From positions 1 to 25,083 of the IMG/VR virus record IMGVR_UViG_3300025141_010114: 25,083 nt of DNA; one strand, 5' to 3'. The DNA comes from a virus. The notes beneath the pieces were generated by a model. It searched no databases. It was not told the origin of the DNA and saw nothing but the letters and a program-made list of their open reading frames with translations. The position numbers were made by a program, and so were the translations under genes. This document shows positions 14,195-24,209 of the stretch, piece after piece (within the stretch, counting starts at the first letter, position 1; every line of letters begins with the position of its first letter).

Positions 14195-14725
14195 ATGGCA
14201 AGTACAGCAATGAGAAAACTAGCAGCAGAAAAAGAAGCTTCTAGAGAAAGAATGAAAGAGAAGGCTAGAGCGTACGAAGGGATCGCTGCCGGCGGAGAAG
14301 ACGTAGCAAGGGGCGCCATTCGACAACAGGCAGCCACAGGATTAGCTGCTGCCATTTCTGCTGGGGGTGGTGGAGGTATGGGAGGTGGCATGCTAGCTGG
14401 AGCTAGACAGACTGCCCTATCTGCAGGTATGCAAGAGGCAACAGCAGTACAAGCTGCTAGAGAAAAAGCAGGACAAGTTGGTCTTGAAACTGAACAACTA
14501 ATTGCTGAAATAGGTTCTAAAGAAGCCGATGCTCAACAGAAGCGTGTTGATTATGAGGCTCAAATTCAAGCTATCTTTGCTGCTAATAAAGGATTCTTTG
14601 ATGATGATGAGGATTCTGCTGCTGATTCAATCTTAAGACTAGCTGATAATGAAGAAGATGGTGCAATTGCTGCAGAACTTAGGGCAAGAGCTAAAAGAGT
14701 ACGTGATCAAGTAGAGGACTTTTAA
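14195..14725 (+). CDS. Small internal virion (ejection) protein, T7 gp14-like in place and size
   Basis: This 176-residue protein is Ala-rich and helical, with a central Gly run (about 53-66, SAGGGGGMGGGMLAGA) flanked by amphipathic helices. The N-terminus is basic (KLAAEKEASRERMKEKAR) and the C-terminus acidic (FFDDDEDSAAD, then EEDG). It opens a trio of 176, 663 and 2377 residues that parallels T7 gp14 (196), gp15 (747) and gp16 (1318) in order. In T7 these leave the head first and build the channel across the envelope, with gp14 forming the outer-membrane pore. The Gly-flexed helical hairpin here is compatible with that. No direct sequence match to gp14 is claimed. Confidence 0.65.
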   Translation: MASTAMRKLAAEKEASRERMKEKARAYEGIAAGGEDVARGAIRQQAATGLAAAISAGGGGGMGGGMLAGARQTALSAGMQEATAVQAAREKAGQVGLETEQLIAEIGSKEADAQQKRVDYEAQIQAIFAANKGFFDDDEDSAADSILRLADNEEDGAIAAELRARAKRVRDQVEDF

Positions 14726-14727
14726 TT

Positions 14728-16719
14728 ATGGCTAGGATATTACCAACAGGATTAGCCCAACCATGGCAGTACAAAGAAAAGAAGATTGTACAACATACGC
14801 CTATGACTCAGGTTGGTCCTACAGAACTTAAAGCAATCTACGATGTAGGTAAATCCTTGTGGGACGAGGTAATATCCCCTAACATGGCAGCCCTCATTGG
14901 CGCCATTGTAAGAGCCAATCAAGCTGAAGGTCCAGATAAAAAAGACAAAGAGGCTGCAGTTACTAGACTTATTGCTGCAGGAAAGATACCTCCTGCAGAG
15001 GTAAAGAAGGCTAAAGAAGCCGCTGCTGAAATAAGAAAAGCTGATCCAGATAGTGTAAGACATGCAATGGGGCATTATGATCCTGAAATCACACCAGAAG
15101 ATCTAGCTGCTAAAGAAGGGCGAAGGGCTGAAAGAGAAGGGGAAGTCATGACCTTCGATGAAGCAGATCGTGATGCAAAAACAGTTGCAGAGGAAAATCT
15201 ATTTATTGATAGATTATATCTTAAGTTCCAAGATGGGTCATGGACAAAAGAACAAGCACTTAATTACTTAACTGCACAGACTGATCGACTAGCTGAATTA
15301 GAATTTGATATAGAAAGAATTAGACAAAGGATTAATTCTTGGTGGGGAGCAGAAGCACTTAAAGAACCCTCTAGAAGTTGGAGCGGGGATTTAGAAGCTG
15401 CTCGACAACAGTATCCTAATTTAGATTTAGAATTAGATGAGTCTGGTGAGATAAAAGTTATTGGTCAAGATGGACTTCCTTATATAACCCAAACTCCTGC
15501 CAGAATGGATGCTGCTACTGCATCAGGCAGAGAACAACATGGTCAACCATGGGAGGATACTCGTGCAGGTCCAGCCGATATAAGATCTACAGCCAGAGGA
15601 GATTGGGGTATAGAGAGTACAGATTTAAATACACCCGCTATGATTATTCATGGTGATCGACTTGGAGTGGATACATCTAGAGACATTCATGGCGCACCTC
15701 AATTCGATCCAATAACTGCAGGAAGTGGACCGGTACCTCCCGGGGTTGCTCCTGATACTCCAAAGACTCTTACAGATTATGATAGACGCATGCGTGATCT
15801 AGATCTTGAACAACTAGAAATTGATAGGATGGCTAGAGAAGCCGCTCCTCCACCGGAGCCACTACCGCCTACCGCTGTTCCTCCTACACCAGCGGCTGTA
15901 GCAAGAGATCCGGGGAGATACGATAACATTTGGGCAGAAGCTGCGGCTGCAACAACGCCCGAAGAACAAGCAGATATCGTTCAAAGGTATGTTGACACGT
16001 ACCAACCTAGGGATATGGGTGAGGTGTTGTGGGGCGACGATTATAGAAAGGAAGCTCAGGCTAAACGAATAAGGGAGTTTATGTCTAGTGCGTCTAAGTC
16101 TAAGACAACTGCACCATGGTTAGAAAGAAAAAGAGAAGAGGAATATTATAGGCTTAAGGCTAATCGATTAGCAGAAGATAAGGAATATGGTCCTCTTACG
16201 TGGGAGGAACTGCAGAAAATGCCTCCAAGAGAAGTAGAAGCATATGATAATATTATAAAAGCCAGAAAACGTCTTGCTGAAACAAAGAGAGAAGAACTTA
16301 AACTATCAGTAGACGAAGTAACACTGCTGCGAAGTAAACTAGCACAGACTCAAGCTGAGGAAGATGGTCTTTATTATGCACGAATGAAAGAATTCAGATC
16401 GGCTGAAGAACATGAGTGGTCCAGAGTAGATCGTGATATTGCAAACCAAAAGATAAAACTTCAAATTGATCAACTCCTAAAAGAAACTGACAAAGAAGAA
16501 CGTAAGACACTTACTCAGCGGAAAAAGCTTGTACAAGCCGCTCTCAGACAACGGGCAATTCGTATTACTAACGAACTTAAGGCAATGATTCCCTACAAAA
16601 GAGTTTATGGTACCCAAATCAATGCAAAGGTTCTAGAACATGATAAGGTCGTTAAAGATATGGCAAAGGTTGCAGACATGTCTGACGCTCAACTTCAAAC
16701 TTACTTGCGTGGATTATAA
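14728..16719 (+). CDS. Medium internal virion (ejection) protein, T7 gp15-like in place and size
   Basis: This 663-residue protein lies two bases after the preceding gene, with GAGG upstream in that gene. It is almost wholly helical and highly charged. A first domain runs to about 220 (DEVISPNMAALIGAIVRANQ, then FIDRLYLKFQDGSWTKEQAL). A polar middle is followed by a Pro-rich linker at about 371-390 (PPPEPLPPTAVPPTPAA). A long coiled-coil C-terminus (about 480-663) is full of Lys, Glu and Arg heptads. Position and size match the middle member of the podoviral internal core, which forms the tube linking pore and inner-membrane protein. Low-complexity linkers are more abundant than in T7 gp15. 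The assignment rests on order, size and helical character. Confidence 0.65.
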   Translation: MARILPTGLAQPWQYKEKKIVQHTPMTQVGPTELKAIYDVGKSLWDEVISPNMAALIGAIVRANQAEGPDKKDKEAAVTRLIAAGKIPPAEVKKAKEAAAEIRKADPDSVRHAMGHYDPEITPEDLAAKEGRRAEREGEVMTFDEADRDAKTVAEENLFIDRLYLKFQDGSWTKEQALNYLTAQTDRLAELEFDIERIRQRINSWWGAEALKEPSRSWSGDLEAARQQYPNLDLELDESGEIKVIGQDGLPYITQTPARMDAATASGREQHGQPWEDTRAGPADIRSTARGDWGIESTDLNTPAMIIHGDRLGVDTSRDIHGAPQFDPITAGSGPVPPGVAPDTPKTLTDYDRRMRDLDLEQLEIDRMAREAAPPPEPLPPTAVPPTPAAVARDPGRYDNIWAEAAAATTPEEQADIVQRYVDTYQPRDMGEVLWGDDYRKEAQAKRIREFMSSASKSKTTAPWLERKREEEYYRLKANRLAEDKEYGPLTWEELQKMPPREVEAYDNIIKARKRLAETKREELKLSVDEVTLLRSKLAQTQAEEDGLYYARMKEFRSAEEHEWSRVDRDIANQKIKLQIDQLLKETDKEERKTLTQRKKLVQAALRQRAIRITNELKAMIPYKRVYGTQINAKVLEHDKVVKDMAKVADMSDAQLQTYLRGL

Positions 16720-16721
16720 AA

Positions 16722-19700
16722 ATGGCTAGTCCCCTCACCTTAAGACAAGGTAACGTCGGTGACATCGATGTAATCCTATTTGAAGAAAGTCAAAATTCAC
16801 CAGAATGGGTTGAGTTTGTCAATAGTACAGGATTACCTCCAGAACATGTATTGTTCGAACTACACCAAATGCATCATAGATGGTCTGAAGAGTCTAAGGC
16901 GGCACAGGTGCAAGCTGCTAGAGAAAGAGGCTATGCTGTTGGTCCCCCGGTTGGAGAAGGTGGTGGCAGAGTTACATATAAAGAAGAAGATGTTACTAGA
17001 AAACAGTTTATCGATAAATATGGTGTTGCCCCTACAGCAGATCTTCCTAGAGAATATGAACGTACTGAGGTAAGTAGAAAAAAGTTTATCCCGGATGAGC
17101 GAACCCAAGAGTTCGCCGATTTCACAAAGGCTAGAGAAGAAGCAGAAGCACAGGCTCTAAAAGATGAAGCGGCTGAGAGAGATGCTAAACTATATGCATA
17201 TGCTATGAAACATCAGGGCTACATCCCGGACAAACCGATGACGCAGACGGGTTTCGGTCCTATGCCAGGACTAGTCGCTGACCCCGGCTGGAAGCCTAAT
17301 CCTAATCACCCAGCTTTTGGTGGTAGTGGCTATAATGAAGAGCTATACATCAGAGAACATACATCAGCCTTACGTGCAGGGGGACTAGGCGCGCCCCTTG
17401 TACCTGCTCTACGTATTGCAGGGGCGACAGAAGGAGCCTGGGAAGAATTTGGTAGAACTGCAATGCATGCCGCTGTTGCTACTAGGCTCGGATCCGCCAT
17501 TGGTGCTGGTGTGTCAAGCAGAGAACAAGATGAACAATTAATTCGTGAAGCATTAGATGGAAATTTATCGTTAACTCCTGAAACATATGACCAGATAGAA
17601 AAAGATATTGAAGAAAGGTTTGGTAATGTTGATCAAGCCTTGGTTAACTCAGGGCTTCTAGATGCTAATCTAGCAGCATTAGATAACTTTGGTACAGACT
17701 TTATCGATACGATCATGATCATGTGGCATTTAGCATCTGAAGGATTGGGCTTCGAAGATATCACCGAAGCAGACGCAAAACAACTTAAGGCTGCCTATTG
17801 GAAATATATGGCAACGCAAGGACCAAGAGGGCGGCAATTTGGAAGAGGACTAGTCTCTGGTATGATAGGTGGGGTTGGGTTCTTTGGAGATCCTCGTAAT
17901 TGGGGTAAATCCTTCGCTGCACGTCCATGGCTAACACTTCTAATGTGGTCCCCTATTCTTAAAACAGGTCTTCGACTTGCTAGGTCCAGTAGCAAGATAT
18001 CAGCAGATCAGGCTGCTAAAATAGAAGGTTGGCTTAAGGCTACCAATGCTATCGAAGCTTCTATTGAGGCTGCTAAAAGACTAAAAAAGGGGTACTCATC
18101 CGGGCAGGCTGCGAGGATGGGAGTCGATATTGCAAAAACGATAGGTTTATCCCCAGAAGCTACGTCGGCATTCTTAAGATGGTGGAATGATGCAGCCGCA
18201 GATGGATCACTTGACATCGAATACTGGAAGAAAGGAGTCATTGAGGATCCAGTTAAACTAAGATTAAAAGTTGTACAGTTATTTTCTGAGATTGAACGCA
18301 AGATTCGAAGAGGTGAGGAAGTAGGTGCACCACGGTATGAGGGTGATGTACCCCCTCCTGCAGCCCCTGGTACCCCTCCTATACCTCCCCCAGAATCAGG
18401 ATATGGTGTAGCACCATCTGATGTTGTTGAGGTGCGTAGATATCCGCCTCCGACTCCTAGAACTGCAGTAGAAAGACAACTTAGAAGAGAGTTCGAACTA
18501 GCAGAAGAAGCAAGACTTACTCCTAGTGAAAGGGCTAAGGCAAAAGAAGCAGCAGAATATCGGGAAGCTTTCGAAGAAGGACAAATCGATCCACTTACAA
18601 CAAAACTCAGAGAACCTCCTCAAGGACATTACGAAAGAGGACTAGGTGCTAGACCAGCAACTGATTATCCACTCACTAAAGGATTAGTTGAGTCAGGAAG
18701 ATATGAAGAATTAACATACAAGAATCTTGAGAGGTTGGATCCTTATACTGGTGAAGTTGTTGAGAGCAGGTTTCCGGGTGAACCTGAATTCTTCCCTAGA
18801 TCTAAACCACCTAGGACAAAACTTAGTCCTGAAGAACGTGCAATTAGAAATCTTGAAAGGGAACAAGAACTTTCTGGCTTGAAAAAGAAGATAAAGAAAA
18901 ACCTTGAGGACGAGTCAAATATTCGTTTGGCAATCGAAGCCGCAGAGAAAGGCGAAAAAGACACACCGCTATGGCAGGTTAAAGCTGCATATGATCAAAT
19001 TGAAGCGATTCAATTAAAAAACGATCTTCTTCTTGCAAAAGGAAAACGCTTGGATGCAGAGAGAAAACGGTATATCCTAGAAGAAGCCGGTACGCTTGTC
19101 GAAGGTCCTAAAAAACACCCCAAAACTAGACGCGCACTTACATTAGAAATCGATGAGAATCTCCAAAAGATTAGAGAGGTCCGTGAGGGTGTGGAAGCCA
19201 TGAAGGAGATAAGGGATTCCGGTGAATCACCCGGTGCACATCCAGAATTTGGAAATATTCGTGATGGTATGGAACTACTAGAAGTTCTTGAAGCACGGGA
19301 TAAAACACTACGTACCGAATTAAAATCAAAAGGTCCTGCAGAACTCCATGCCGGTATACCATTACCAAAGATACTTAAAGAATTAGAACCGCTTCTGAAG
19401 AAGTTAGGATTAATCTATGAGGGTAAACGAGGTGGTGCACGTACCGGGGTGGCGCTTACCTATAGGTTTAAGTCTGCGAGTTCAGAAGATCCCATTATAT
19501 TGAGAAAGAGCGTAATAGAGGATAAAGGTTTAGAAGGGGCACTTAGAGAAGCTCTAGAACAGCATCGCCTGAAAGCCGAGGAGAAATTCAAGGCTAAGGC
19601 GGAGGAGGCGGAGTGGGCTAAGGCGGAGGAGGACTACATCCCATGGTTAGATGTAAGTCAACCGATGCGCATTATAGCTAAAATTGAGCAACTTACTGAA

Positions 19701-22700
19701 TGGTTGGAAGTAGAGAAAGGTATCGGGCGACTCTCCAAAGGGCGGCGAGGAAAAGAATCGATAAGTCTACGTCGCAGCCCTGAAGAAATAGCTCAGGCTA
19801 GAGAGCTTCTCCCTAAGTTATTGACTATAGTAGAAACAATTGGTAAGAAATTTCCTCCGGAGTTAAAGTTAAAAGAACGTCTAGACGCTCTTGACATTAA
19901 GCCCGCCAAGGTCACCGGAGGGAAGTTCGATACCGGCGTACGCATGCGGGAGGATTACTACCTCCATGCTGGTGTACCATTACCAAAGATACTTAAAGAA
20001 TTAGAACCGCTTCTGAAGAAGTTAGGAATAATTTATGAGGGTGCCTCGGGTAAAAAAGATGCACCTCACATGTATGGCTTTCAAGGTGATGGGAAGGGTA
20101 AGCTAAAAAAAGGAGACTCTTTTAGTGTTACAACAAAACGGATTGAAGACCTAGGTGTAGAGGGAGCATTTAGGCAATCATATGATGCTATTATAGAGGC
20201 GAATAAACTAGCAAATATACCATTACCAGAAATATTTAAAAATAAGAATTGGGATATAGAGCCACTTCTCGAAAGGTTAGGGATTATTTATAAAGGCACT
20301 GTAGAGCATAAAACAGAAACTCATCCTGTATATGGTTTTGAGTATGTGAAGGAGGGTCCTGTAAAGGGTACCACTTTCAATATTAAGGAAAGTCGAATCA
20401 ATCAGCACATCGAGAGGCGCAAGCGCGGGTTCGTTGACGAGCGCGCCAGAGCTACTGATGCACAATTTGCTATAAAAGTAGCTCTTAATGAGGTGATGTC
20501 TAAAATTGATCCTGAACATTCGAAGATGCCTTTCGCCGGTGAATTGCAACCCCGGGAGCCCGGGGATCCATACAAGTTCTATGGTGGAATTCCAATTGAA
20601 CCACTTTATGAACAAAGTAAAAAAGCTTATGATTATGCAGTCAAGAAGTTGTTTGGTGAAAAGGTTAGACCAGAAGATATTCTAGAAGTAGAAGATCTGG
20701 CTATTCATGATTGGGTTTTTGGTGAGAAAGAGAGTGTTCCTGTTAGAGTACAGAATGGTAAAATTTATAATACTGATCAGTATAGAGTGTTGTTAGATCA
20801 ACTATCAGATCCTACTCCTCAACGCATTAAAATTAAAGATAGTACCAAATTAGAACTAGATCTACAGAGCAAGAAAGATCGTCTAGCTAGACTCGAAGCA
20901 ATGGATCCGCCTGTCTCGGAAACAATTCTACAAACTGAACGTGGATTTATTGAGTCTGCTGAAAGAAGACTAAAAGAGTTCAACGAAGATCCAGCTACAT
21001 GGCTTGATGACACTGTAGGCAATATTCGCATTAAAGCAATGAAGAAAGCGCTGGTCGACAAGATTGTTGATCGTGGTTTGATGAGTAGGAAAGACGCAAA
21101 TGCAATGATGCGGCGAAAAGGGTGGGATGATGCTGCAGCCGTGGCACAGTATGTTGTTAGTAAACAATGGACTAGTAAGATTCCAGAGATCTTTTATAAA
21201 GATCCTAAGGTGCAAGGAGTAATGAATGAGATTATAGCACTCATAGAGAAGCACTACGGTAATGAAGGCGCTGCAGATATCCTTAAAACAAATATACCTG
21301 CAGGTGAAATATGGAGCATTATTGATAGAGCAATTAAGCCCGGAGAAGGTCTGCCAGCTAGGTTTGCTGAAAGGATCGTAGCAAATGTATTCCACGATCA
21401 GTCAGTGCACTGGTTAAGAAATAAAGATGTTAGAAATCAAGTTATTGATAAGTTATCAAAATTAGATCCTGATGTTCCTGTCAAGGAATGGAATAGGCTT
21501 CTCAATAACATGGTTGAGCCGGCACTTACTGAGGGTGTTTTTGAATACCAACTTGAACTTCCAAATGGCAAAACCATTAGTACTATGGAGCTAATAGTAG
21601 ATACTGTCAAGGAGCTTCCCGCAGAAATAAAGAAGGATATACGTGCAGAAGTTTGGATGCAAATAGGTTATGAAGTTGCCGCTGACTTACAACGACGTCA
21701 GTTGAGGCAGGGTCTTCACAAAGAATCTTCACGCTTTTTTAATAAAGAAGGTGGAACACAAATAACTGATTATGTTACGAATCTGGTACGTGGTATAAGT
21801 GACGGCGAAATGATGCCTCAATCAATTAAAAGATTTGCAATTGCAGACATAATAGCAGAGTTAGAAACAAATAAGAACAAGTATATTGAGAAGATTAGCC
21901 CATACGTGCATGAGTATACTGGTAATGAATTAATGGTTAATAAGCTTATCGATGCTCTCAATAAGTATGGTGCACCTGAAGGGATTATTCGCAACTATGT
22001 TGGACGTGGTGTGAAAGCAGTTAATCCTGGGTTAAATTCTACTTTAAAATGGCATATCAAAACCTTGAATACTGCTAGAGAAGCCAATAGTATGTTTTGG
22101 AGAATTCAAACAGGTATTAAAGCACACCTAACCGCTTTAAATCCCAGTGCTGGAATAACAAATGCCATGGCAAATATATTTGTGCAGGGACAAAAGAGAG
22201 GAAAAGGTCCATTAGGCATTATAGCCGATCTGGTTGATAGTGGATCCATATATAAACAATATTTGGAAGGTAAATTACCTAGTCATTTAACTAGTTTAGA
22301 ACCTTTTCTTAAGGAATTAGAAGCATCTGGATTATTGAATACAACTGTTGTAGAGGCTGAGTTGGGATCTCTTAAGAATCCTGCTGCAAGTTATTGGGGA
22401 AAGGCTTGGAGAAAGTTAACTGCACAAAAGATATTAACTAAAGCATATCGTTTTGGTGATAACATCTTTAAGCTTGATCAATCTCTAAGAGGTATAGTAT
22501 CACTCAGAAATCAACTTCGTCATTTTAAAGAAGGTGATTTTTACATGCTTGATATGACAAAAGGTAGGAAGGGGCTGCTTGTTAAAACCAAAGAAGGTTG
22601 GGAACTAAGAACTCCTCAGGGTGTGAAGCAGCTTAGTGAAAAAGATTATGCTAGAGTTATAGTAGACGCAGCTAATGCTATGGCACAGGCACTGTTTTTT

Positions 22701-23855: not shown

Positions 23856-23880
23856 GATATATAAAACGAGGAGGATTTTA
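23856..23880 (+). promoter_or_regulatory. Leader with GATATATAA and strong ribosome site before the 108-residue gene
   Basis: GATATATAA (23856-23864), shared with 14170-14178, is followed by AGGAGGATTTTA (23869-23880), shared with the capsid leader. It thus combines elements from the two other strong starts in the window. It may mark a late transcript start; no clear -35 is seen. Confidence 0.45.
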
Positions 23881-23882
23881 CA

Positions 23883-24209
23883 ATGGCAACAGTAATAAGT
23901 TTGAATGAAAGATTAATGGCAGGTAATCCAGTGCTGGATTCTGGTGCAACTATTGTGGCGCATGCAGCTAATACCGCTGGTGCTTTGACTGCACTAATAG
24001 AGGCAGTTGATCTATCATCTGCTAAGTATATTCTAATTTCTAATACATCAGGAGCTAATGCTTACATGCATGACGGCTTGGCTGGTGGCGCAGGGGTTGG
24101 TATTCTACTTGCCCCTAATGCAACACTAGAATTAGAAGTAGCAAATATACCTAGCGATTGGGCACTAGAATGTCCAGGCGGCATATGTTATATAATGGTA
24201 TTACGATAG
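23883..24209 (+). CDS. Small beta-rich virion protein, possible capsid decoration protein
   Basis: This 108-residue protein is mostly strands: SAKYILISNTSGANAYMHDG, a Gly-rich turn (LAGGAGVG), ILLAPNATLELEV and a final GGICYIMVLR. The layout (residue-resolved strand, 'N-S/T-...' turn, G..GI.L.PN..LEL, then an edge strand) resembles a small beta-sandwich type often found as an unnamed structural protein in tailed phages. It has no signal peptide or membrane helix. Its ribosome site is identical over 12 bases to that of the major capsid gene, which hints at high expression and hence a protein needed in many copies. Decoration or surface function is inference. Confidence 0.55.
   Translation: MATVISLNERLMAGNPVLDSGATIVAHAANTAGALTALIEAVDLSSAKYILISNTSGANAYMHDGLAGGAGVGILLAPNATLELEVANIPSDWALECPGGICYIMVLR

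Follow-up and report, generated by a model that had tools for sequence, protein, structure and literature searches.

Genomic context of a giant virion gene

The DNA examined is a 25,083-base virus record, which we refer to in its entirety as the window and in which positions are given on one strand. It codes for a terminase, the major head protein, and the portal, followed by a long run of genes on the same strand that ends in one open frame encoding a giant protein of 2377 aa (Table 1). This gene and the two preceding it, which encode proteins of 176 and 663 aa, form a trio with gaps of 2 bases each, and none of the three products has a family match in PHROGs, Pfam, or NCBIfam searches. The early genes of this phage lie outside the window. 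A near-identical 27-base leader with a strong ribosome-binding site is present at 2839-2865 and again at 23862-23888, preceding the major head protein gene and a 108-aa gene at 23883, respectively.

Table 1. Features of the giant gene, its upstream neighbors, and the repeated module
Feature	Position	Strand	Remarks
176-aa Ala/Gly-rich protein, gp14-position candidate	14195..14725	+	Position and size only
663-aa protein, gp15-position candidate	14728..16719	+	Position and size only
Giant virion protein gene P0001	16722..23855	+	2377 aa, single open frame; candidate gp16-position ejection protein; homologue in L002/L003
Hypervariable middle block holding the modules	18810..20558	+	About residues 697-1279, boundaries approximate; L002/L003 alignment fails between conserved anchors
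Module copy 1	19344..19574	+	Residues 875-951; HMM and alignment; absent from L002/L003
Near-identical head of copy 1, 81 bases	19344..19424	+	77/81 bases match the copy 2 head, with an exact run of 53
Spacer between copies 1 and 2	19575..19961	+	Predicted largely helical; holds 17-base direct repeat
Module copy 2	19962..20201	+	Residues 1081-1160; equivalent to the relatives' single copy, closest to it along whole length
Near-identical head of copy 2, 81 bases	19962..20042	+	Matches copy 1 head
Module copy 3	20208..20444	+	Residues 1163-1241; diverged, adjoins copy 2

In the ejection operons of short-tailed phages such as T7 and P22, the order is gp14-gp15-gp16, encoding a small Ala/Gly-rich, a medium, and a giant protein (PMC8954989). 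Likewise, the 2377-aa protein is encoded by the last and largest gene of a three-gene block near the head and portal genes, following gp14-like and gp15-like genes that are recognized by size and position only. Gp16-type ejection proteins are mosaic and highly variable in size, with a listed range of 609-1337 aa (PMC8954989). The window's protein differs from this type in its length and in that no transglycosylase domain was found in it, and it shows no significant match to known ejection proteins in PHROG, Pfam, NCBIfam, PDB, and phage tblastn searches. On its genomic position, we consider it a candidate ejected virion protein, probably gp16-like.

A repeated module with a near-identical head

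The middle of the giant gene contains three copies of a module of about 80 residues, of which the first two open with almost the same 81 bases, spaced 618 bases apart. Alignment confirmed the first-pass annotation's count of 77 identical bases, including an exact run of 53. Of the 27 residues in each head, 25 are shared, and the codon is the same for 23 of these, compared with 9.5 expected from the codon usage of the window (P = 7e-9). The DNA likeness ends abruptly on either side of the head. No second direct repeat of such length and identity occurs anywhere in the 25 kb window, and no comparable direct repeat was found in the giant gene of relatives. Copy 3, previously described as tandem but diverged, is indeed both: it follows copy 2 immediately, its start at residue 1163 lying 82 residues after that of copy 2 at residue 1081, and its head shares 56 of 81 aligned bases once its 4-codon insertion is removed. 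The charged helical spacer between copies 1 and 2 has its own 17-base direct repeat, GGCTAAGGCGGAGGAGG, at 19592 and 19616 (19592-19632), 24 bases apart, which is likely a slippage product.

As for the tails of the module, that of copy 1 scored against a model trained on the other copies as well as only 3 of 2000 shuffles did, indicating modest homology, while none of 2000 shuffles equaled the tail of copy 3 in the same kind of comparison. Since both tails score as module, copy 1 is a full module rather than a head fused to an unrelated protein. The earlier statement that identity is limited to the opening helix thus holds for the DNA, which stops matching sharply, but the protein that follows is not unrelated.

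The three-copy arrangement is known from one metagenomic contig, and viral contig scans yielded no near-identical contig over the site, as might be expected if two sequences had been joined during assembly at their common 53-base run. Against such a chimera, the frame is open across all copies, the spacer codes for continuous protein, and the tail of copy 1 is different. Moreover, the 53-base run is shorter than a typical sequencing read. We therefore regard an assembly artifact as very improbable.

The module is a small orphan domain

An AlphaFold2 model of copy 2, built from the five available sequences, has a pLDDT of 83 and a pTM of 0.74 and folds into one helix, three strands, and two helices (H-E-E-E-H-H). 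A model of the 441-aa region spanning the three copies, which was used for element order only, shows the same order in copies 1 and 2, although with low confidence (mean pLDDT 46). Foldseek comparison of the copy model with the PDB and the BFVD viral models gave no match at E < 0.001, and sequence searches against Pfam, PHROGs, NCBIfam, and PDB sequences returned nothing significant. The module is thus a small orphan domain, new to the libraries searched. The first-pass annotation had suggested a new repeat domain, and the lack of any match to a well-known domain, in sequence or fold, agrees with this, but the domain is narrow in distribution, found only in the window and two relatives.

The best matches were all below significance: the RuvB_C wing and a designed protein, both at E 0.13, and the JEP8 protein (probability 0.51, E 0.42). 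The dsRBD-like fold has a similar order of elements (helix-strand-strand-strand-helix), yet the sole dsRBD match had an E of 2.3 and a TM of 0.23. The phage motif 'YDK..P..LKKYAKKWGAKV..ITPxMR' was also discarded, its hhalign probability being 0.2% over 8 columns when compared with two real examples. Nor were further copies convincing: neither FHAGLDMREFLKN after the L002 module, considered as what is left of copy 3, nor the conserved 'GGIPIEPL' anchor at residue 1287, considered as a possible fourth copy, clearly outscored shuffled sequences (110, 163, and 36 of 3000 shuffles).

The giant proteins of phages and plasmids are known to carry small orphan domains, the LPDs, and these proteins are thought to be injected (PMC5512222). 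The module resembles LPDs in being a small orphan domain in a giant phage protein. It differs in that it belongs to one clade, whereas LPDs are spread among many elements, and in that it is repeated within one protein. When the full-length protein and the individual copies were scanned against Pfam, no LPD profile was matched.

Distribution of the module among relatives

Two independent relatives from different metagenome assemblies, L002 and L003, encode a giant protein about 80% identical to that of the window over residues 1279-2377, with lower identity N-terminally. Copy number, raised in the first-pass annotation as a point of comparison, does differ among these relatives, with three modules in the window and one each in L002 and L003. 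Within residues ~697-1279, the alignment with L002 and L003 holds only at one module copy, which is copy 2-like throughout. Between window 20043-20081 and L002 7027-7066, the 33 bases that directly follow the copy 2 head and encode GKKDAPHMYGF are identical, although the two phages are otherwise diverged. Relatives identified through their portal at 97-99% identity end short of the module; one of them, G003, gives a 96% match over the first 612 residues of the giant protein.

The module is absent from distant relatives (L033-L035, L017), the portal of which is 35% identical. These phages retain the small-medium-giant gene order with the giant gene last, and their giant protein has in common with that of the window only a C-terminal stretch, residues 1786-2040, at 24% identity. 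Contig G005 (38.6 kb) has a distant relative's giant gene leaving both of its ends (L033 2-3883, L034 10426-12570), and it is therefore probably a complete genome, whether circularly permuted or not, that was cut within the gene. Viral contigs were scanned with patterns and profiles, in a collection that may lack records very close to the window, and no module was found beyond the window, L002, and L003. It was not found in 84,980 bacterial and archaeal genomes, and isolate phages gave no match. The module is so far confined to one clade of marine phages, and the reach of our findings is limited since it is known from three contigs.

When window 16722-18820 was compared with L002 4450-6500, the fraction of identical residues specified by the same codon was 0.85 over residues 1-170, 0.67 over 171-560, and 0.89 over 561-700. 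Judged by its codons, the giant gene is patchworked between the window phage and L002, which suggests that patches were recently exchanged. L002 itself has two 76-base copies, 16377-16452 and 16769-16844, 392 bases apart and 76% alike, each with a TATAAT-like sequence; these are likely repeated phage promoters.

Head and tail of the module have different histories

The head and tail were contrasted with L002 as the reference, that is, one comparison species, over 27 head and 49 tail residues. In the head, copies 1 and 2 agree against L002 at 14 bases, compared with 2 at which copy 2 and L002 agree against copy 1; the corresponding residue counts are 7 and 1. In the tail, copies 1 and 2 share only 5 such residues and copy 2 and L002 share 19. 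This reversal of relatedness is significant at the residue level (Fisher P = 0.0016). Four-sequence topology tests on the head and the tail apart, both of which are short pieces, excluded no tree (AU p 0.07-0.82), so the case for recombination rests on the pairwise contrast.

In the tail, copy 1 lies further from copy 2 than does the counterpart of copy 2 in another phage species, so the duplication of the module itself should be older. And since relatedness reverses between head and tail, the heads most likely owe their identity to older copies having recently recombined, and a fresh duplication of the entire module is not indicated. The first-pass annotation's "recently duplicated 80-residue module" is therefore not supported, because only the 81-base head is recent, while the conversion or recombination limited to the opening helix that it also proposed is favored by the incongruence of head and tail. 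A plain recent duplication, followed by fast divergence of the tails under diversifying selection, would be the simplest history and would also account for the identical heads. It is nevertheless improbable in our judgment, given that the tails diverge beyond the between-species distance with no DNA likeness left and that the silent sites of the head are nearly unchanged, which would call for an extreme rate shift exactly at base 81.

Another possibility is that the tail of copy 1 and the spacer came from a related phage by homologous recombination at the head, in the manner of a single-crossover integration that leaves a head on both sides. Accordingly, a 537-base segment is flanked exactly by the 81-base repeat, G+C content is ~0.49-0.51 at 19440-19800 compared with ~0.35-0.45 in most flanks, and similarity between phages varies from patch to patch along the giant gene, as seen in the same-codon fractions (0.89 for residues 561-700 vs 0.67 for 171-560). 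Yet viral contig scans found no donor phage with the copy 1 tail and spacer segment, and the G+C excess is small, the gene reaching 0.48 elsewhere. We hold this insertion to be rather unlikely as a full account; the exact repeat flanks and the slightly G+C-richer segment keep alive a route via a segment of a co-infecting relative.

Discussion

We consider it moderately probable that an orphan domain of ~80 aa in a giant, probably ejected virion protein gained extra copies, the heads of which were later homogenized by recombination. According to this explanation, a domain of one helix, three strands, and two helices would sit in the fast-changing middle of a giant virion protein, which probably enters the host by ejection, as T7 gp16 does. 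The window's lineage would have gained extra module copies (three vs one), and after these had diverged, recombination between copies 1 and 2 would have re-equalized the first 81 bases while the tails stayed different. The route could have been gene conversion inside a single genome or, at the shared head, crossing-over with the genome of a co-infecting relative. We infer recombination from the repeat, the difference in copy number, and the reversal between head and tail.

Such exchange has precedents. High yields were obtained with lambda Red recombination at 22% divergence (PMC2327257), so substrates of this kind are within the reach of phage recombinases. In lambdoid phages, homeologous recombination between partly diverged sequences creates mosaicism and patchwork genes (PMC2327257). 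The giant gene of the window would likewise be patchworked by recombination of partly diverged sequences, with the difference from lambdoid phages that the partners here would be copies within a single gene or phages that are very closely related. A bolder and doubtful extension is that the conserved opening segment is a built-in recombination seed, with which this clade would swap tails, change copy number, and keep pace with its hosts.

As for function, the modules may add folded elements to the flexible middle of a protein that would exit the capsid via the portal and then either span the host envelope or enter it. Each copy could then fold on its own and serve as a spacer or contact element, making the ejected protein longer.

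In its evolutionary behavior, the module is nothing unusual for the virion genes of phages. Few parts of phages are as variable or as poorly understood as ejection proteins, and a module that changes in copy number and is homogenized by recombination is one way in which they grow and diversify. With its small size and clear boundaries, the domain would also suit structural work. If the ejection reading is right, module copy number would alter the reach or the contacts of the ejected protein.
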